A DNA stretch of 7,499 bases from Bacillota bacterium (GTDB lineage: Bacteria; Bacillota; Bacilli; Bacillales_B; DSM-18226), in contig JAKACS010000142.1 of NCBI GenBank assembly GCA_021821235.1, positions 1 to 7,499 on the forward strand. The letters run 5' to 3'. Below are positions 394-7,499 of this stretch, piece after piece. A program made the position numbers and the translations under genes. Under the pieces are notes generated by a model that searched no databases, was not told the origin of the DNA, and saw nothing but the letters and a program-made list of their open reading frames with translations. Each line of letters opens with the position of its first letter. Position 1 is the first letter of the stretch.

Positions 394-741
394 ATGTTGA
401 CATCAATAGTGGAATTGGAACGTGCTGCCAATGTGTTAAAGTTATTAGGTGATAAAACGCGCTTAACCATTGTGGCGATTTTAAAACAACGTGAATGCTG
501 TGTCTGTGAATTTCAAGAAGTTTTTGACATGAGTCAGCCATCCATTAGCCAGCATCTTCGTAAGTTAAAAGATGCCGGGATGGTGAAGGAAGAACGAAGA
601 GGGCAATGGATTTACTATTCTTTAAATCAAAAGAGTGAACTATATGAACTTGTAGAAACTATTTTAGAGCATGTACCCGATCAGACCGAGAAAATCAAAA
701 TGATAGAAAAAAGTAATCCTACGATTCGATGCGGTTGTTAA
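394..741 (+). CDS. arsR: ArsR/SmtB-family As(III)-responsive repressor
   Basis: This is a 115-residue winged-helix repressor that blocks its own operon until As(III) or Sb(III) binds. The family start VLKLLGDKTRL is at residues 14-24. The metalloid site ECCVCEF (34-40; Cys35, Cys36, Cys38) sits at the start of the DNA-binding region, as in the classical ELCVCDL motif. The recognition helix SQPSISQHLRKLKDAGMV (47-64) and the wing RRGQWIYYSL (68-77) follow. The protein ends in Cys-Gly-Cys (113-115), an additional possible thiolate pair. I chose ATG 394 because AGAGG (381-385) stands 8 bases upstream; the in-frame TTG at 376 would add six residues but lacks a ribosome binding site. It is the first gene of the operon, 45 bases before arsC. 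Family and function are secure. Confidence 0.96.
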   Translation: MLTSIVELERAANVLKLLGDKTRLTIVAILKQRECCVCEFQEVFDMSQPSISQHLRKLKDAGMVKEERRGQWIYYSLNQKSELYELVETILEHVPDQTEKIKMIEKSNPTIRCGC

Positions 742-786: not shown

Positions 787-1212
787 ATGATGGAAAACAA
801 AAAGAAACTTTACTTCTTATGCACAGGGAATTCTTGCAGAAGCCAAATGGCAGAAGGATGGGCAAAAAATTATTTAGGTGATGAGTGGGAGATTCGAAGT
901 GCGGGCATTGAAGCGCATGGTTTAAATCCAAATGCAGTAAAAGCCATGAAAGAGGCCGGAATCGACATTTCCTATCATACTTCAGATATCATTGATCCTA
1001 GTTATTTAAACAATGCTGATTTGGTTGTTACATTATGCGGCGATGCAGCAGATAAGTGCCCAGTAACCCCACCGAAAGTAAAACGGGAGCACTGGGGATT
1101 TGATGATCCTGCAAAAGCTCAAGGAACAGAGGAAGAAAAGTGGGCAGTCTTTCAACGTGTCCGTGATGAAATCGGAGACCGGATTAAGCGCTTTGCCGAA
1201 ACAGGTCAGTAA
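787..1212 (+). CDS. arsC: Thioredoxin-coupled arsenate reductase (low-molecular-weight phosphatase fold)
   Basis: This cytoplasmic enzyme reduces arsenate to arsenite using thioredoxin. The P-loop CTGNSCRSQ covers residues 12-20 (CX5R: nucleophile Cys12, Arg18, second Cys17). The redox relay pair is Cys84 and Cys91 in [10 protein letters not shown]. The general-acid loop EHWGFDDPA lies at 101-109. All three or four thiols needed for the Cys-to-Cys-to-Cys relay of the Bacillus/Staphylococcus ArsC class are present, and the length of 141 is normal for the class. It is not the glutaredoxin-linked E. coli type. A GAAGGGCGG ribosome binding site ends at 781. The tandem ATG at 787 and 790 leaves the start ambiguous by one residue; 790 (MENK...) matches the B. 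subtilis protein as I remember it. The product As(III) would be handled by arsD and arsA, which follow directly. Confidence 0.97.
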
Positions 1213-1237: not shown

Positions 1238-1603
1238 ATGAAAAAAGTAGAGATTTTTGATCCGGCATTGTGCTGTCCTACGGGCGTTTGCGGTCCAAGT
1301 GTCGATCCAGAGTTAACAAGAGTGGCAACTGCCATCTTTTTATTAGGGAAAAAGGGCTTAGATATAGCGCGATACAACCTTGGAACAGAGCCAGGAGTTT
1401 TCGTTGAGAACAAAGAAGTAAACAAAGCCCTTCATGAGACAGGCCCCGATTCACTTCCGATCACACTTGTTGAAGGAAAAGTGGTTAAAATTGGCTCCTA
1501 TCCAAGCAACGAAGAGCTTGCCGATTGGTTTGGCGTGAATCCAGAGGAACTCCGTGTAAAACCTAAAGCAGGTGTGAAAATCGAGCTCAATCCGATGAAA
1601 TGA
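1238..1603 (+). CDS. arsD: ArsD arsenite metallochaperone / weak trans-acting repressor
   Basis: ArsD carries As(III) in the cytosol and hands it to ArsA, raising ArsA's activity at low arsenite. The 121-residue protein has the family start with KKVEIFDPALCCPTGVCG; Cys12, Cys13 and Cys18 form the As(III) site required for transfer. The rest (thioredoxin-like fold) includes LPITLVEGKVV (93-103) and the SYPSNEELADWFGV segment. The two extra C-terminal vicinal cysteine pairs of the E. coli plasmid R773 ArsD are absent; the same absence was reported for Bacillus ArsD in strain CDB3. The ribosome binding site TTGAGGGG lies just upstream of ATG 1238. arsC ends 25 bases before and arsA begins 15 bases after the stop, so translation of arsD and arsA is likely closely coordinated. 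Confidence 0.96.
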   Translation: MKKVEIFDPALCCPTGVCGPSVDPELTRVATAIFLLGKKGLDIARYNLGTEPGVFVENKEVNKALHETGPDSLPITLVEGKVVKIGSYPSNEELADWFGVNPEELRVKPKAGVKIELNPMK

Positions 1604-1618: not shown

Positions 1619-3388
1619 ATGTTTCAATCTTTCGATACAAAATATGTAAGTAACACAAAATTTTTATTTTTTACCGGAAAAGGTGGGGTAGGAAAAACTT
1701 CGACTGCTTGTGCTACAGCTGTATCGTTAGCAGATGAAGGAAAAAGGGTGTTGCTCGTCAGTACAGACCCTGCTTCAAACTTACAGGACGTACTAGAAAT
1801 CGAATTGACAAATACACCAATCGCCATGCCCAATGTCCCGAATCTAGCTGCTTGCAATCTCGACCCCGAAGAAGCAGCAAGAGCCTATCGAGACAGAATG
1901 ATTGGACCGTATCGCGGCAAGCTTCCCGAGACAGTAGTGAAAACAATGGAGGAACAATTGTCTGGGGCATGCACTGTAGAAATAGCGGCTTTTGATGAAT
2001 TTACAAACTTACTTGCAGATACTTCCGTAGTTGAGGCATATGAACATATTATCTTTGATACAGCTCCAACCGGACACACACTTCGATTGCTGCAGCTGCC
2101 GACAGCATGGAGTGGATTTTTAGAAGAAAGTACACATGGAGCTTCTTGCCTCGGTCCCCTTTCAGGATTATCTGAAAAGAAACAGATTTATTCGCTAACA
2201 ATGGATGTGCTTTCTGATTCAACCAAAACGACCTTAATCCTTGTTGCACGACCGGACGAATCATCCTTATTCGAAGCGAATCGCGCATCTAAAGAATTAA
2301 AAGAAATGGGCATTTCAAACCAGGCATTTATTGTTAATGGGTTAATGCAGTCTTTTCTGCCAGAAGATGAAATTTCGTCGTCGTTTTTTAACCGACAACA
2401 GCATGCTCTAAACCAAATGCCAAAAGAGTTAAAGCAAGTGGTTACTTATTATTTGCCGTATGTCTCCTATTCGTTAACCGGAGTTAAAAACCTCCGCAAT
2501 CTTTTTAAGCTAAATGTTACACCAGCCTTGCAGTTGGATGTTGAAAAGCAGATGATCCGTTTGCATGGATTAAATAAAGTCATTCAGGATTTTTCGGAAA
2601 GCAATAAAAGAGTGATTTTTACAATGGGTAAAGGTGGAGTTGGGAAGACAACGATCGCTGCGGCAATTGCAGTTGGTTTGGTTGAAAAAGGTCATAAGGT
2701 TCATCTGACTACAACAGACCCTGCAGCAAATGTAGAATTTATGTTTGAAAATAATGAATTTGATAGCAATTTAACGACCAGCCGGATCAATCCGAAAGAA
2801 GAAGTGGAGGCATATCGGGCTGAAATTTTATCGAAAGTAAGCAATGAACTCGATGAGGAGGCAATTGCTTATCTGCAGGAAGACTTAAACTCGCCTTGTA
2901 CCGAAGAAATTGCTGTATTTCGAGCTTTTGCAGATGTTGTGTCAAGGTCAAATGAAGAAATAGTGGTGATTGATACAGCGCCAACCGGACACACTCTCCT
3001 CCTTTTAGATGCTGCGCAGTCGTATCATAAAGAATTGGCTCGTTCAACAGGAGAAGTTCCCGAGAGTGTGGCGTCCTTATTACCACGGTTAAGAGATCCA
3101 AATGAAACGAGCGTGGTCATTGTTACATTGGCTGAAGCAACTCCAGTATTGGAAGCTAGCCGGTTACAAGAAGATTTGCAGCGTGCAGGAATTGTTCCAA
3201 AATGGTGGGTAATCAACCAAAGCTTATATGCTACTGACACAAATGATCCGGTTTTAAAGGGTCGGGCAAGAGAAGAAATTGGTTGGATTCAAAAGGTGAC
3301 AAAAGAGTTTTCCGATACATGTGCAATTGTTCCTTTAATGATTGAAAAAAATAGCCGATTCGACCACATTAAAAATCTTATTGGTTGA
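1619..3388 (+). CDS. arsA: ArsA arsenite-stimulated ATPase, two-domain form
   Basis: ArsA is the cytosolic ATPase that binds As(III) and normally energises export through the ArsB permease. At 589 residues it is the full double-domain form. P-loops GKGGVGKTS (20-28) and GKGGVGKTT (337-345) and two signal-transduction motifs DTAPTGHT (147-154 and 452-459) mark the halves, joined by a linker around 300-330. The three cysteines of the metalloid site are recognisable: Cys118 in SGACTVEIA, Cys177 in GASCLGP and Cys427 in SPCTEEIA, equivalent to Cys113, Cys172 and Cys422 of R773 ArsA. The ribosome binding site is weak (AAGAAGTG), which fits coupling to arsD just upstream. No arsB or acr3 permease gene is in the window, so its export partner is not visible. 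The gene looks intact. Confidence 0.97.
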   Translation: MFQSFDTKYVSNTKFLFFTGKGGVGKTSTACATAVSLADEGKRVLLVSTDPASNLQDVLEIELTNTPIAMPNVPNLAACNLDPEEAARAYRDRMIGPYRGKLPETVVKTMEEQLSGACTVEIAAFDEFTNLLADTSVVEAYEHIIFDTAPTGHTLRLLQLPTAWSGFLEESTHGASCLGPLSGLSEKKQIYSLTMDVLSDSTKTTLILVARPDESSLFEANRASKELKEMGISNQAFIVNGLMQSFLPEDEISSSFFNRQQHALNQMPKELKQVVTYYLPYVSYSLTGVKNLRNLFKLNVTPALQLDVEKQMIRLHGLNKVIQDFSESNKRVIFTMGKGGVGKTTIAAAIAVGLVEKGHKVHLTTTDPAANVEFMFENNEFDSNLTTSRINPKEEVEAYRAEILSKVSNELDEEAIAYLQEDLNSPCTEEIAVFRAFADVVSRSNEEIVVIDTAPTGHTLLLLDAAQSYHKELARSTGEVPESVASLLPRLRDPNETSVVIVTLAEATPVLEASRLQEDLQRAGIVPKWWVINQSLYATDTNDPVLKGRAREEIGWIQKVTKEFSDTCAIVPLMIEKNSRFDHIKNLIG

Positions 3389-3498: not shown

Positions 3499-3927
3499 AT
3501 GACAACAAAGAACTATCACGAATTAATGAAAGACCGCATTTATTTTGGCGGGGCAGATGATGTGAAAGACATGATGGAAAATGAAAAGGCGGATGTTATT
3601 TTCGATTTGCGTGCAGAGTCTCACGAGAATAAGTCGGGGTATGATCGTATCCATAGTCCGATTGTTGATGACGCTGAACACCAAGATGAATCAATCAAAA
3701 AGTCGATTGAACATGTTGTAAATGCTTATAACGAAGGGAAAAAGGTGTATTTTCATTGCGGCGGTGGAAGTAACCGTGCAGGTACCGTAGCAGTTGGAAC
3801 ATTATTGTCATTAGGTAAAGCAAAGACCCTTGATGAAGCGGAAAAAATGGCAAAATCGATTCGTCCCAAAGTGAATGTAAAACCGGAAATGAAAGAAGCA
3901 TTACAACGCTTATTTCCAAATTCTTAA
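3499..3927 (+). CDS. HCX5R protein phosphatase-like protein of the ars operon
   Basis: This 142-residue cytoplasmic protein has the dual-specificity/tyrosine phosphatase signature HCGGGSNRAGT (His86, Cys87 nucleophile, Arg93). It lies in the usual context of a preceding strand (KKVYFHC), a following helix (AGTVAVGTLLSLG), and an upstream Asp pair (Asp57-Asp58) that could hold the general acid. The N-terminal RIYFGGADDVKDMM and DVIFDLRAE resemble other compact dual-specificity phosphatases. I chose ATG 3499 because AAAGGTGG (3483-3490) is 8 bases upstream; the GTG at 3487 lies inside that site. It matches the protein-phosphatase gene named arsP in Bacillus sp. CDB3 ars cluster 1; that symbol is also used for an unrelated methylarsenite permease, so I leave it off. 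Its substrate is unknown. A role with arsenate or arsenylated phospho-analogues is only inference from context. Confidence 0.85.
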   Translation: MTTKNYHELMKDRIYFGGADDVKDMMENEKADVIFDLRAESHENKSGYDRIHSPIVDDAEHQDESIKKSIEHVVNAYNEGKKVYFHCGGGSNRAGTVAVGTLLSLGKAKTLDEAEKMAKSIRPKVNVKPEMKEALQRLFPNS

Positions 3928-3975: not shown

Positions 3976-4254
3976 ATGAATATCACCGATCCGGCGCGCG
4001 AAGCATTGAAGCAATTGTTCCAAGCACACAATGCCACTAACATTCGTGTCTATTTTGCTGGCTTTGGCTGAGGACAGCCACAAGTAGGACTGGCTCTGGA
4101 TGAGCCAGATGAAAAGGATAAAGTGGAAACCATTAACGAAATACAAGTTGCGATTGAGCCTGCAATTGAATCCTATACAGAGGCCCTCACTCTTGATTTT
4201 AACCAAGAAGCGAATGGGCTTGTATTAGTAGGAAATGAAAGTAACTGCTGTTAA
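3976..4254 (+). CDS. HesB/IscA-like selenoprotein (Sec at in-frame TGA 4069-4071)
   Basis: Read through one TGA, this frame gives a continuous 92-residue protein related to A-type iron-sulfur carriers (HesB/IscA). It begins MNITDPAREALKQLF. The strand IRVYFAGFG (23-31) leads to the TGA at codon 32, followed by GQPQVGLALDEP (33-44). The end is GLVLVGNESNCC with Cys91-Cys92. Codon 32 coincides with the first conserved cysteine of the HesB domain (IscA Cys35), and Cys91-Cys92 with the C-terminal cysteine motif. The HesB-related selenoprotein family (TIGR01911) is known to carry Sec at this position. A bSECIS-like hairpin follows at 4090-4108. The ribosome binding site GAAGGGA (3961-3967) is 8 bases before ATG 3976. 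The gene is 48 bases after the phosphatase gene and closes the operon. It may bind or deliver Fe-S, or bind As(III) through Sec/Cys. A nonsense-mutated gene is the alternative, but there is no other damage. Confidence 0.85.
4069..4071 (+). other. Recoded TGA (selenocysteine codon)
   Basis: This in-frame TGA lies at codon 32 of the HesB-like gene. It differs from a Cys codon (TGT/TGC) only in the third base and sits at the position of the conserved domain cysteine. Family-like sequence continues in the same frame on both sides with no insertion or deletion. Confidence 0.82.
4090..4108 (+). promoter_or_regulatory. Bacterial SECIS-like hairpin
   Basis: CTGGCTC (4090-4096) pairs perfectly with GAGCCAG (4102-4108) around the five-base loop TGGAT (4097-4101). 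The apical loop begins 25 nt after the TGA, inside the 16-37 nt window accepted for bacterial SECIS elements. The second loop base is G, meeting the rule of a G in the first two loop positions. This is where SelB would bind to bring Sec-tRNA to the ribosome. The stem is inside the codons for LALDEP, so sequence and structure are under joint constraint. Confidence 0.78.
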
Positions 4255-4265
4255 CGAAGAAGAAT

Positions 4266-4300
4266 GAGGGGTGTTAGGAAACTAGCACCCTTTCTTGTTT
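4266..4300 (+). terminator. Rho-independent terminator of the ars operon
   Basis: GGGTGTTAG (4269-4277) pairs with CTAGCACCC (4282-4290), nine pairs with one G-U, over a GAAA tetraloop, and is followed by TTTCTTGTTT. It starts 12 bases after the TAA of the HesB-like gene. This supports 4254 rather than 4071 as the functional gene end. Confidence 0.9.
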
Positions 4301-4389
4301 AAACCATATGGAACCTCTCTAGGGACACCTTATTTTTCCACTTATTAGCAAGAATGGCTGGCGGTAAAATGCGTATAGTTCAACCAATC

Positions 4390-4422
4390 GGGAGCCGTAC
4401 ATGGGTACAGCTCCCATTTTTT
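4390..4422 (+). terminator. Second intergenic terminator with no gene in front of it
   Basis: GGGAGC (4390-4395) pairs with GCTCCC (4410-4415). After a C/A mismatch, GTAC (4397-4400) pairs with GTAC (4405-4408) around ATGG. A and six T (4417-4422) follow. The previous gene already has its own terminator 90 bases upstream, and 4301-4389 holds no convincing gene or promoter. It may be a backup terminator, the end of a small RNA, or the remnant of a lost gene. Confidence 0.75.
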
Positions 4423-4448
4423 CATTTAATCAAACGTTTGATTAAATG
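4423..4448. promoter_or_regulatory. 26-nt perfect palindrome, TetR-operator-like
   Basis: CATTTAATCAAAC (4423-4435) is followed directly by its exact reverse complement (4436-4448), with no spacer. The core TCAAACGTTTGA has the look of operators bound by TetR-family dimers. It begins immediately after the T-run of the preceding terminator and lies 173 bases before the mtlA start. No TetR-family gene is in the window and no promoter clearly overlaps it, so its user is unknown. Confidence 0.5.
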
Positions 4449-4463
4449 GTGGTAAGAACGGAA

Positions 4464-4490
4464 AAGCCAACGATTGGAGCTTGTTTTTTT
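4464..4490 (+). terminator. Weak terminator-like hairpin before the mtlA control region
   Basis: AAGC (4464-4467) pairs with GCTT (4479-4482), and CAA (4468-4470) with TTG (4474-4476), with a two-base bulge, followed by a run of seven T (4484-4490). The stem is weak. It may insulate the mtlA promoter from transcription from the left. Confidence 0.3.
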
Positions 4491-4514
4491 AAACTATTTT
4501 TTTGATTTTTAACA

Positions 4515-4536
4515 TTGTCAACAAGCGATGTGACAA
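4515..4536 (+). promoter_or_regulatory. MtlR-binding box upstream of mtlA
   Basis: TTGTCA (4515-4520) and TGACAA (4531-4536) form an inverted pair, with the right half reading TGTGACAA. This resembles the MtlR consensus TTGNCACA-N4-TGTGNCAA known from Bacillus, although the spacing here is two bases longer. The box ends 18 bases before the -35 hexamer, a position suited to an activator. Its left half, TTGTCAACAA, recurs twice upstream of mtlR. Confidence 0.7.
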
Positions 4537-4554
4537 AATGCAATTTTATAAGAA

Positions 4555-4583
4555 TTGAAACAGTGTTGAAAACGCTTTAATAT
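4555..4583 (+). promoter_or_regulatory. mtlA promoter (SigA type)
   Basis: TTGAAA (4555-4560) and TAATAT (4578-4583) are separated by 17 bases. Transcription would start near 4590, giving a leader of about 30 nt that holds the strong ribosome binding site AAGGGGG (4607-4613). A cre-like site overlaps the -10, and an MtlR-like box lies 18 bases upstream of the -35. Confidence 0.75.
4567..4580 (+). promoter_or_regulatory. CcpA catabolite-responsive element (cre) at mtlA
   Basis: TGAAAACGCTTTAA matches the cre consensus TGWAANCGNTNWCA at 13 of 14 positions, with A for C at position 13. It overlaps the -10 of the mtlA promoter, so CcpA binding would block transcription when glucose or another preferred sugar is present. 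Confidence 0.65.
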
Positions 4584-4620
4584 CAAAGTGTAGGAACAAT
4601 AGAAACAAGGGGGAAATACA

Positions 4621-6048
4621 ATGGACGAAATAAATAAACAAAGTTCAGATATCAAAGTCAAAATACAGAGATTTGGCAGTTATTTAAGCGGTATGGTCAT
4701 GCCGAATATCGGTGCATTTATTGCATGGGGGATTATCACCGCTCTATTTATTCCAACAGGTTGGTTCCCAAATGAAAGCCTTGCCAAACTGGTGGGACCG
4801 ATGATCACTTACTTGCTGCCACTATTAATTGGTTTTACCGGCGGCAGAATGGTTCACGATATCCGTGGAGGAGTAGTTGGTGCTGTCGCAACAATGGGTG
4901 TTATCGTTGGAACGGATATCCCGATGTTCTTGGGAGCAATGATTATGGGGCCGCTTGGCGGTTACGTGATTAAGAAGTTTGACCAAGCCATTCACGGAAA
5001 AGTAAAATCCGGTTTTGAAATGCTAGTTAATAACTTCTCTGCTGGTATATTAGGTGGACTTTTAACTTTATTAGCATTTAAAGGTGTTGGTCCAGTCGTT
5101 GAAGTGTTAAGTAAGGGTTTAGCTTCAGGTGTACAATTTATTGTAAATAATAATATGCTGCCTTTGGCAAACATCTTTATTGAGCCAGCAAAGGTTCTCT
5201 TCCTAAACAATGCCATTAACCATGGCGTTTTAACACCATTAGGCGTTGAACAGGCTTCAAAAGTTGGTAAATCCATTCTTTTCATGCTTGAAGCAAACCC
5301 TGGCCCTGGGTTGGGAATCTTGCTTGCTTACTGGTTATTTGGTAAAGGAACAGCAAAACAAACAGCTCCAGGAGCAGCAATCATTCATTTCTTTGGTGGT
5401 ATTCATGAAATCTATTTTCCTTATATTTTGATGAAACCGATCTTAATTCTTGCTACGATGGCCGGTGGGGTAAGCGGTGTTTTCACATTTACCATTTTCA
5501 AGGCCGGACTCGTTGCAGCTCCATCACCTGGAAGTATTTTCGCATTCCTTGCTATGACGCCAAAAGGCGGGTATATAGCTACACTTTCAGGGATCATTGT
5601 GGGGGCAGCCGTTTCATTCGCAGTGGCCTCATTACTGTTGAAAACAAGCAAATCCAAGGAGGAAGACTTATCGTCTGCAGCAGCAAAAATGGAAGAAATG
5701 AAAGGAAAGAAAAGCAGTGTTTCTTCAATCTTAACAGCCGAATCCGAACCAAAAACATTTGAAGCTGAAAAAGTAAACAAAATCGTATTTGCTTGTGATG
5801 CGGGAATGGGGTCAAGCGCCATGGGTGCCTCTATTCTAAGAAATAAGGTAAAAAAGGCTGGTCTGGATACGACTGTCATTAATACAGCGATTAATAATTT
5901 ACCAGATGATGCCGATGTAGTAGTCACCCATAAAGATTTAACAGACCGTGCAAAAGCAAAACTGCCAAACACTATTCACATCTCTGTTGAAAACTTCTTA
6001 AATAGCCCAAAATATGATGAATTAGTGAATCGTTTAAAGGAAAAATAA
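4621..6048 (+). CDS. mtlA: Mannitol-specific PTS permease, EIICB
   Basis: MtlA imports D-mannitol across the cytoplasmic membrane and phosphorylates it to mannitol 1-phosphate with phosphate from HPr through EIIA and EIIB. Residues about 15-342 form the membrane IIC domain, starting RFGSYLSGMVMPNIGAFIAW and containing the conserved substrate loop GGIHE (259-263) followed by IYFPYILM. A polar, lysine-rich linker (about 343-384) leads to the IIB domain, whose P-loop ACDAGMGSSAMGAS carries the phosphorylated Cys392. The length of 475 fits the Bacillus EIICB form. The IIA domain found fused in E. coli MtlA is absent here and should be a separate mtlF gene, probably beyond the window. The start is well placed after AAGGGGG. 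Expression should need MtlR and be reduced by CcpA, as its control sites indicate. Confidence 0.97.
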   Translation: MDEINKQSSDIKVKIQRFGSYLSGMVMPNIGAFIAWGIITALFIPTGWFPNESLAKLVGPMITYLLPLLIGFTGGRMVHDIRGGVVGAVATMGVIVGTDIPMFLGAMIMGPLGGYVIKKFDQAIHGKVKSGFEMLVNNFSAGILGGLLTLLAFKGVGPVVEVLSKGLASGVQFIVNNNMLPLANIFIEPAKVLFLNNAINHGVLTPLGVEQASKVGKSILFMLEANPGPGLGILLAYWLFGKGTAKQTAPGAAIIHFFGGIHEIYFPYILMKPILILATMAGGVSGVFTFTIFKAGLVAAPSPGSIFAFLAMTPKGGYIATLSGIIVGAAVSFAVASLLLKTSKSKEEDLSSAAAKMEEMKGKKSSVSSILTAESEPKTFEAEKVNKIVFACDAGMGSSAMGASILRNKVKKAGLDTTVINTAINNLPDDADVVVTHKDLTDRAKAKLPNTIHISVENFLNSPKYDELVNRLKEK

Positions 6049-6054
6049 AAATGC

Positions 6055-6090
6055 AAAAGAAAAAGTCCAGATTGCTGGACTTTTTCTTTT
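6055..6090 (+). terminator. Strong terminator between mtlA and mtlR
   Basis: A 16-bp perfect stem (6055-6070 with 6075-6090) with core AGTCCAG/CTGGACT closes on the loop ATTG. Its 3' arm ends in TTTTTCTTTT, and the A-rich 5' arm makes it able to act in both directions. It begins 6 bases after the mtlA TAA. It should cut most mtlA transcripts before mtlR and so lower regulator output relative to transporter. Confidence 0.92.
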
Positions 6091-6096
6091 TAAGTA

Positions 6097-6118
6097 TTGT
6101 CAACAAGTCAAGTGACTA
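6097..6118 (+). promoter_or_regulatory. MtlR-binding box upstream of mtlR
   Basis: TTGTCAACAAG at the left and GTGACTA at the right repeat the mtlA box at most positions in a 22-base span. The box ends 18 bases before the -35 of the mtlR promoter, the same distance as at mtlA. It suggests that MtlR acts on its own gene. Confidence 0.6.
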
Positions 6119-6136
6119 TTTTAGTTTTGATTCTTG

Positions 6137-6165
6137 TTGTTTTAGGCGTGAAATCGTTTTATTAT
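6137..6165 (+). promoter_or_regulatory. Candidate mtlR promoter
   Basis: TTGTTT (6137-6142) and TATTAT (6160-6165) are 17 bases apart. The hexamers are weaker than those of mtlA, but spacing to the MtlR-like box is identical. It lies after the mtlA terminator, which gives mtlR a way to be transcribed on its own. Confidence 0.5.
6149..6162 (+). promoter_or_regulatory. Weak cre-like site at the mtlR promoter
   Basis: TGAAATCGTTTTAT matches 12 of 14 cre consensus positions; both mismatches are in the last two bases. It starts 11 bases before the -10 hexamer, exactly as the better cre does at mtlA, which is the main reason to take it seriously. Confidence 0.4.
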
Positions 6166-6192
6166 TTTATTGCAGGCTAGAAAAATTAAATT

Positions 6193-6212
6193 TTGTCAAC
6201 AACTTGTGATTG
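6193..6212 (+). promoter_or_regulatory. Third MtlR-like box, downstream of the mtlR promoter
   Basis: TTGTCAACAA is followed by CTTGTGATTG, a left arm identical to the other two boxes and a degenerate right arm (TGTGATTG for TGTGNCAA). It lies about 28 bases after the -10, inside the presumed leader, where binding could obstruct elongation and limit MtlR level. Confidence 0.35.
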
Positions 6213-6251
6213 GAGGACGAGGATCAGAAAACGTCAGACGGAGTGAAAACG

Positions 6252-7499
6252 ATGTATATTTCCGCAAGAGAAAGACAGATTCTTGAAATCTTATTAAACG
6301 AAAAAGATGAATTAACAGTTAAAGAACTAGCAGACAAAATAGGTGTGAGCGGTCGAACAATCCATCGCGATTTAAAAAATATTGAGGATATAGTAGAGGA
6401 ATACCAGCTTTCTTTACAGAAAAAATCTGGAGTAGGCGTCCAAATTATAGGAGATAAAAAGAATATTCAAGAGCTGGAGTTATTCCTATTTAATCTTTAT
6501 CATACAGAATATACCCCTGATGAGCGGCAAACGGTCATTTTGTGTGAATTATTGGAGTCCAGTGAGCCTGTAAAGTTGCTTGGACTAGCCAATGATTTGA
6601 GTGTGACCATTGCAACTGTAAGTAATGATTTGACAAAATTGGAAGAATACATTCGGAAATTTGGGTTATCACTGATACGTAAAAGGGGTTATGGCGTAGA
6701 AATTAGCGGGACAGAAGATGCAAAAAGGCGTGCAATTCGGAATGTCATTTCCGAATATGTGGATGAGTCGGAAATTCTAAACCTTGCCAGAGAAAGTATC
6801 CAAAAACGATCCACTCATCAAATTCATTCTATCTCCGAAAAGCTTTTAGGTTTGGTAGAAAAGAAAAAACTGTTCATGATCGAGAATGTCATTGCATCTA
6901 TTAGTGGGGACTTGCCTTATACGTTGGCGGATAGCGCCTATATTGGTTTGGTTGTCCATCTGGCATTGGCCGTTGAGAGAATCCAAAAAGGTGAAGGGAT
7001 TAAAATTGATCATGCTTACCTCGAAAATCAGCAATCGACAAAAGAGTTTAAATTTGCAAAGAAAATTGTTGACCAATTAGAGCAAGTTTTTCAAATCGAA
7101 ATTCCTATGGCGGAAGTAGGATATATAACGATGCATTTAAAAGGTGCGAAGCTTCGCCATGATCATGAATATCTTTCTGAAGCTTCAAGCCTTCATGTGG
7201 CCATTAAAACGAGGAATCTTATAAAGTATGTTGGGAATTACTTAAGTATTGACTTATCAGAAAATCGTTCGTTATTTGAAGGGTTAGTCATGCATTTAAA
7301 GCCGGCTCTCTATCGGTTAAAGCAAAATATGGGCATTAGCAACCCTTTGTTGGCTAAAGTCAAAAAGGATTACGGAGACTTATTTTCGATTGTAAAAAAA
7401 GCTGTTGAACAGGTATTTCATGAATTTGCTGTCCCCGACGAAGAAATTGGCTATCTTGTGATGCATTTCGGCGCCGCGGTACTTGGCTATAAAGAAATG
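6252..7499 (+). CDS. mtlR: MtlR, PRD-type transcriptional activator of mannitol genes (3' end outside window)
   Basis: The first 416 codons are open to the window edge; family members run to nearly 700 residues. Residues 1-45 are a DeoR/HTH_11-type DNA-binding domain (LTVKELADKIGVSGRTIHRDLK). A second helix-turn-helix (about 90-150) contains LANDLSVTIATVSNDLTKL. PRD-I (about 195-305) carries His236 (GLVVHLALA) and His295 (YITMHLKGAK). PRD-II (about 310-416) carries His348 (GLVMHLKPA) and His405 (YLVMHFGAA). These four histidines correspond to the PTS phosphorylation sites by which HPr and the mannitol EII set its activity. The EIIB-like and EIIA-like C-terminal domains are expected beyond the edge. 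ATG 6252 has GGAG 8 bases upstream; an in-frame GTG at 6243 is a poorer start. Gene order mtlA-mtlR resembles the mtlARFD arrangement of Geobacillus. Confidence 0.95.
   Translation, partial: MYISARERQILEILLNEKDELTVKELADKIGVSGRTIHRDLKNIEDIVEEYQLSLQKKSGVGVQIIGDKKNIQELELFLFNLYHTEYTPDERQTVILCELLESSEPVKLLGLANDLSVTIATVSNDLTKLEEYIRKFGLSLIRKRGYGVEISGTEDAKRRAIRNVISEYVDESEILNLARESIQKRSTHQIHSISEKLLGLVEKKKLFMIENVIASISGDLPYTLADSAYIGLVVHLALAVERIQKGEGIKIDHAYLENQQSTKEFKFAKKIVDQLEQVFQIEIPMAEVGYITMHLKGAKLRHDHEYLSEASSLHVAIKTRNLIKYVGNYLSIDLSENRSLFEGLVMHLKPALYRLKQNMGISNPLLAKVKKDYGDLFSIVKKAVEQVFHEFAVPDEEIGYLVMHFGAAVLGYKEM

Follow-up and report, generated by a model that had tools for sequence, protein, structure and literature searches.

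The window, the whole stretch of 7,499 nt that was analysed, contains arsR, arsC, arsD, arsA, a phosphatase-like gene, a hesB-type gene with an in-frame TGA codon and a terminator-like hairpin, in this order. The individual features are as follows.

394..741, plus strand: arsR, ArsR/SmtB-type metalloregulator (HTH_metalloreg 101.3 bits, cut-off 55); an alternative TTG start at 376 is possible
787..1212, plus strand: arsC, thioredoxin-linked arsenate reductase of the pI258 family (TIGR02691 237 bits, cut-off 174.3)
1238..1603, plus strand: arsD, As(III) metallochaperone (NF033727 129.5 bits, cut-off 90)
1619..3388, plus strand: arsA, arsenical pump-driving ATPase (TIGR04291 851.3 bits, cut-off 650)
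3499..3927, plus strand: dual-specificity-phosphatase-like gene, the probable counterpart of CDB3 ars1 orf8 (PF00782 43.8 bits, cut-off 33.5)
3976..4254, plus strand: hesB-type gene, very probably of a selenoprotein, 92 codons and TAA, with Sec at codon 32 and a Cys91-Cys92 C-terminus (conserved TGA, Sec machinery in relatives, hairpin covariation, synonymous constraint, fold)
4069..4071, plus strand: TGA codon 32, very probably read as selenocysteine (aligns with the Cys of HI1723 and, where homologues have Cys, with the leading Cys of CCGP)
4090..4108, plus strand: SECIS hairpin with a 7-bp stem CTGGCTC/GAGCCAG, loop TGGAT and -11.8 kcal/mol, 25 nt from the TGA to the loop
4266..4293, plus strand: intrinsic terminator-like hairpin of 12 pairs, 3' of the hesB TAA (consensus scan)

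An ars operon is comprised of arsR and arsC together with the gene of an As(III) exporter. The exporter gene is missing from the window: neither arsB nor acr3 was found within the 7,499 nt in the open reading frame list or by the family search. As arsD and arsA are present, the pump served by ArsA is either encoded elsewhere or missing. The hesB-type gene is nevertheless the last gene of an arsenic-resistance operon, as the initial annotation described it. It is presumably co-transcribed with the ars genes and would be induced by As(III).

Many relatives have ArsB or Acr3 between arsR and arsC, where the window has a gap (742-786), and some have there a gene resembling those of MIP-like channels. 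Upstream of arsR, the sequence CTCATTGATTCCCGTTTTTA, some 20 nt long, is seen by eye twice at 98-170. Family searches detected two genes downstream of the operon, an mtlA-type gene of the mannitol PTS and one for a regulator with a PRD domain. When positions 4300-7499 were compared with 193 genomes of one family, G147 and G007 (Neobacillus sp. OS1-33) gave the best DNA matches, at 75% identity, and the source therefore probably belongs in or close to Neobacillus.

The hesB-type frame and its SECIS hairpin

The frame at 3976-4254 has a single in-frame TGA, at codon 32. The initial annotation had proposed a 92-codon frame interrupted at this codon, preceded by a ribosome binding site and followed by a terminator, and all three elements are present: the TGA is at 4069-4071, a Shine-Dalgarno-like sequence, GGGAAGGGA, is found by eye upstream of the ATG, and the terminator-like hairpin of 12 pairs lies behind the TAA.

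A scan of species genomes yielded 66 loci, of which 63 are close relatives (L011-L073) and three are clostridial. Codon 32 is TGA at 61 of the 63 close loci, and the three clostridial loci have Cys at the aligned position, so that the homologues carry TGA or Cys where the initial annotation had suggested looking for them. The close loci are nearly all labelled Bacillaceae; the outside labels are Pseudomonas (L029 and L045), Bacteroidetes (L038), Paenibacillus (L066) and Sporosarcina (L064). The two exceptions to the TGA are a frameshifted gene (L072) and that of Bacillus sp. V3-13 (L022, 10001-10300), which has TAA at codon 32. The genome of the latter encodes tRNA-Sec, SelB and SelD, and the protein is therefore dispensable. 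Between arsD and hesB of this strain there is no arsA match.

The homologous sequence noted earlier on both sides of the TGA evolves under selection. Compared with the window, 14 relatives have dN/dS values of 0.04-0.32 for the part preceding the TGA and of 0.06-0.31 for the part following it; without the SECIS region, dS is not computable in five of the 14. A lone TGA mutation followed by downstream decay, which had been named as the observation that would speak against a selenoprotein, was thus not seen.

The published bSECIS model calls for a loop of 3-9 nt, a stem of 4-16 bp, a G within the first two loop positions, a distance of 16-37 nt from the UGA and a minimum free energy of -7.5 kcal/mol or lower, according to the part of the review consulted (PMC13188914). 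The hairpin downstream of codon 32 conforms to this model, with its loop UGGAU, 7-bp stem, distance of 25 nt and -11.8 kcal/mol. The stem was examined in 53 sequences, 52 of them distinct, a set without L022 (TAA), L072 (frameshift), L073 and identical rows. Pairing is retained in 98.6% of 364 cells, and changes occur on both sides in five of the seven pairs. None of 500 shuffles matched this covariation, and versions slid along the sequence pair at 16-45%.

The same region is constrained at synonymous positions. Among 58 distinct genes, a set from which L022 and L070-L073 were excluded, the excess of synonymous identity is 0.47 at codons 39-45, the highest of any stretch of seven codons in the gene, versus 0.09 over the 68 other codons, a figure that is not a probability because the genes are related. 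Codons 29 and 31 (4060-4068), just before the TGA, also have a synonymous excess, 0.41 and 0.64, with GGC in 49 and 50 of the 58 genes, respectively; the constraint at these two codons is unaccounted for by the hairpin.

When 279 TGA triplets on both strands (171 + 108) were scanned, triplets closer than 80 nt to an end being excluded, four had a hairpin of -7.5 kcal/mol or lower at SECIS distance: codon 32, the TGA at 4236, whose hairpin coincides with the terminator, and two minus-strand triplets, which are attributed to a hairpin at 6055-6090. Taken as a whole, the 45-nt stretch has only a moderate folding advantage over shuffled versions of itself (z -2.30, equalled by 5 of 200 shuffles). 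A chance hairpin is ruled out by the covariation, the synonymous constraint and the scan of TGA triplets. A search for Rfam elements gave none at the hesB locus; the six matches, all under the gathering score, lie at 6022-6130.

The initial annotation had asked for the Sec machinery, and in the relatives it is present. Among 50 carrier genomes, tRNA-Sec scores above the gathering score in 50, SelB above its cut-off in 49 and SelD is found in 50; every SelD has an in-frame TGA of its own. This set leaves out the genomes of L038, L046, L066, L071 and L072, and several loci share one genome. The genome of L066 is, as G093, part of a second set, the 193 genomes of the family of Neobacillus sp. OS1-33. 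SelB occurs in 170 of these and a HesB match at 1e-12 in 136.

The 23 family genomes without SelB, that is, with no match at 1e-60 (20 listed and three, G189, G199 and G200, inferred), consist of 14 that lack a hesB homologue and nine that have one. Seven of the nine homologues are Cys-coded and contain no stop, one is a TGA gene and one is a relic of such a gene, its start now missing. The TGA gene belongs to G030, a draft bin with no SelB match that has both tRNA-Sec and SelD. The relic (locus L093, 1501-1716) belongs to G183, which has no match to SelB or tRNA-Sec; its SECIS hairpin is readable. Three of the 23 genomes contain tRNA-Sec (G030, G056 and G199). Among the matches listed, Cys-coded copies are found also in SelB-containing genomes (G042, G053, G124 and G132). 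This distribution of machinery and TGA genes is the one expected of a TGA form that depends on Sec decoding.

That positions 3976-4254 represent a selenoprotein gene within an ars operon is very likely. The conservation of the TGA, the SECIS, the machinery of the relatives, the selection on both halves of the gene, the fold and the operon context are all computed results; Sec insertion in the source organism itself would depend on Sec machinery deduced from these relatives.

Protein family and genomic setting

The protein scores 34.4 bits against PF01521 (gathering score 26.3) and is predicted to have an IscA-like fold. The structure model has a pLDDT of 92.0, and its least certain part is the last block, the C-terminal tail, with 64. 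The best Foldseek matches of the model are E. coli IscA (1r94 and 1s98), followed by AQ_1857, HI1723, SufA and DsrR of Allochromatium. Sec32 aligns with the Cys of HI1723, which corresponds to the first of the conserved cysteines in A-type carriers. A-type carriers have three cysteines, one N-terminal and two in a C-terminal Cys-x-Cys motif; the hesB-type protein has Sec32 and a C-terminal Cys91-Cys92 instead. The Cys-Cys terminus is present in 14 of 14 aligned rows and, by eye, at the 61 TGA loci; P0020, P0047 and P0048 are exceptions among the protein relatives.

The initial annotation compared the protein with the HesB-related selenoproteins of TIGR01911, which have Sec at a conserved Cys position. 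The position holds: codon 32 aligns with TGA or Cys of the relatives, including the clostridial TIGR01911 matches. The scores, however, are below the curated cut-offs (47 bits for TIGR01911, cut-off 66.35; 48.5 bits for NF038090, IscA_HesB_Se, cut-off 85), and the protein is therefore placed outside the curated membership; it is a relative of the TIGR01911/NF038090 family that operates in a similar way. The motif in the window is UGQP, while many relatives have UGGP. In a tree of 43 hand-picked rows, seven clostridial rows are split from the Sec and Cys rows of the Bacillaceae group with a support of 100/98. The Bacillaceae Sec rows as one clade are neither shown nor rejected by this tree (p-AU 0.42), and consequently no direction of the change between Sec and Cys is claimed.

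The genes of this group are found mostly in ars operons, as are the Cys-coded relatives. At least two of arsA, arsB, arsC, arsD and acr3 are present in the fetched flank at 43 of the 63 close loci. Of another 20 copies in the family, chosen from the best 150 HesB matches, ten adjoin ars genes, and so does one of the two second copies in Salipaludibacillus (L134). Seven of eight plasmid records with the Cys-type gene have at least two ars genes; the eighth, L009, is cut at the record end and lists arsC only. No ars genes were detected near the 16 clostridial loci obtained by TIGR01911 searches, with Bacillaceae queries that could miss divergent ones; three of these loci (L119, L120 and L122) hold matches without a stop.

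The remaining 20 of the 63 close loci have fewer than two ars genes nearby. Some Bacillaceae Sec copies sit in sulfur clusters with rhodanese-, DsrE- and MBL-like genes, named by resemblance, and with several of the 20 loci in apparent sulfane-sulfur clusters the role of the protein is not restricted to arsenic.

Such an apparent cluster, of DsrE-, TusA-rhodanese-, MBL-rhodanese- and TauE-like genes, follows a close copy of the Sec HesB gene at L052 (10001-13862), and at L096, L097 and L109 Sec HesB copies adjoin apparent tungstate-type ABC transporter genes; these names are likewise given by resemblance. A search for hesB relatives in viral contigs gave 27 stretches that matched a pattern, none of which was confirmed.

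Function and rival readings

The gene would be translated into a 92-residue selenoprotein of the IscA/HesB fold. The SECIS hairpin would recruit SelB carrying Sec-tRNA-Sec, and the UGA at codon 32 would be read as Sec, which is predicted to occupy the place of the first cluster-binding Cys of A-type carriers. Together with the conserved Cys91-Cys92, Sec32 would most likely form a soft-metal site. Such a site may handle As(III) directly, the protein being a selenol/thiol carrier or buffer beside ArsD and ArsA and not a factor of general Fe-S building. The handling of As(III) at a Sec/Cys/Cys site is the most likely function, at somewhat short of an even chance. A selenol-dithiolate As(III) site acting as a selenium-dependent arsenic carrier or buffer next to the ArsD/ArsA relay, which would tie arsenic resistance to the selenium supply in Bacillaceae, is put forward tentatively.

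Second in rank is a role in which the same selenoprotein would carry Fe-S clusters, or mend those that As(III) has damaged, and would be an A-type carrier specific to stress. The IscA fold, the PF01521 score above the gathering score and the alignment of Sec32 with the Cys of HI1723 agree with this role, which is possible yet doubtful: the C-terminus ends in Cys-Cys and not in the Cys-x-Cys of IscA, and the ars-type Cys relatives have CC at the Sec site.

The third function considered is persulfide or thiol redox chemistry of reactive sulfur; the selenoprotein would then have been recruited to ars operons because arsenite disturbs the low-molecular-weight thiols. Close paralogues are accompanied by genes resembling those of rhodanese, DsrE, TusA and MBL proteins, DsrR of Allochromatium is among the fold matches, and trxB is present in several of these ars operons. 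The neighbourhood of ars genes at 43 of the 63 loci and at half of the 20 further copies argues against this role. So does the finding that none of the window's six operon genes has a match above cut-off to a sulfur-metabolism family, and the role is considered unlikely.

Two further readings, both rejected, deny the selenoprotein itself. A nonsense mutation or true stop at codon 32, with the gene a pseudogene, is very improbable: the TAA in one relative and the start-less relic in one SelB-less genome indicate that loss occurs, but the TGA is kept at 61 of 63 loci and dN/dS after it is low, on which grounds this reading is dismissed, and the SECIS covaries and the Sec machinery co-occurs with the gene. 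That TGA is read as tryptophan, as W at the codon-32 position in all full-length protein matches might suggest, has next to no likelihood, since arsD and arsA of the window end at TGA, Cys homologues align at the position, and Cytobacillus plasmid DNA has TGA there.

These W residues belong to the annotation of the relatives. The protein search returned 47 relatives. Nineteen (P0002-P0020) are full-length, and every one of them has W where Sec is expected; the other 28 measure 52-56 residues and start after the TGA. The latter bear out the expectation that automated annotation would truncate the gene. As the Cytobacillus plasmid DNA reads TGA at codon 32, the W is most simply, and probably, a product of code-4 gene calling on short contigs. 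One of the full-length relatives, P0005, is named 'HesB-like selenoprotein' by one source. At the hesB site of two Cytobacillus plasmids no gene is listed, in gene tables that are incomplete by design. Public annotation thus often truncates or omits the hesB-type selenoprotein gene, and searching protein databases systematically for W of this kind could reveal more missed selenoproteins.

Relation to known systems

The folds of Sec arsenate reductase and Sec arsenite methyltransferase are unrelated to the HesB-type protein. What they have in common with it is Sec in arsenic metabolism, Sec forms of both enzymes being described in the consulted part of a 2026 review (PMC13188914). In the same part of the review, a HesB-like selenoprotein with the motif UxGP is given, and HesB-like proteins were already counted among the bacterial selenoproteins in 2006 (PMC1794560). 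Like the HesB-like selenoproteins of TIGR01911/NF038090, the protein in the window is of the IscA/HesB type and has its Sec at the corresponding position of the alignment. It differs from them in scoring under both cut-offs and in its UGQP, which departs from UxGP; the clostridial loci differ in having an ars-like gene at none of 16 and in forming a separate group of rows (100/98).

HesB-like genes of ars operons are also known. The ars1 operon of Bacillus sp. CDB3 (arsRYCDAT) has a HesB-like orf7 and a dual-specificity phosphatase gene, according to the available portion of its description (PMC4562236), and the statement of the initial annotation that an Fe-S-type protein gene had been reported in this cluster is correct. 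The window likewise has a HesB-like gene in an ars operon alongside a dual-specificity phosphatase gene. Sec is unmentioned in that portion of the account of orf7 (PMC4562236). An Exiguobacterium hesB lies in an ars operon and increased under salt along with arsA, arsR and arsD, as stated in the accessible part of the report (PMC8779447).

HesB-like selenoproteins and ars-operon HesB genes were thus already known separately. Searches of the open-licence PMC literature gave no account of a HesB selenoprotein encoded in an ars operon, and within that literature the combination appears to be unreported. It would add a selenoprotein group to arsenic operons, one that is widespread in a single Bacillaceae family and sometimes carried on plasmids, and would link selenium and arsenic in a family where most genomes encode SelB (170/193).

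Cys-type HesB genes of the same family and in the same ars-operon setting are found on plasmids of Priestia, Niallia, Peribacillus, Sporosarcina, Paenibacillus, B. arachidis, Stenotrophomonas and Alicyclobacillus. They differ from the Sec genes in having CC at the Sec site. In the seven Cys-coded homologues of the SelB-less genomes, which were read at the DNA level, the CTGGCTC/GAGCCAG hairpin is, by eye, not kept. As both Sec- and Cys-containing forms occur naturally in comparable ars operons, the contribution of selenium is directly testable.
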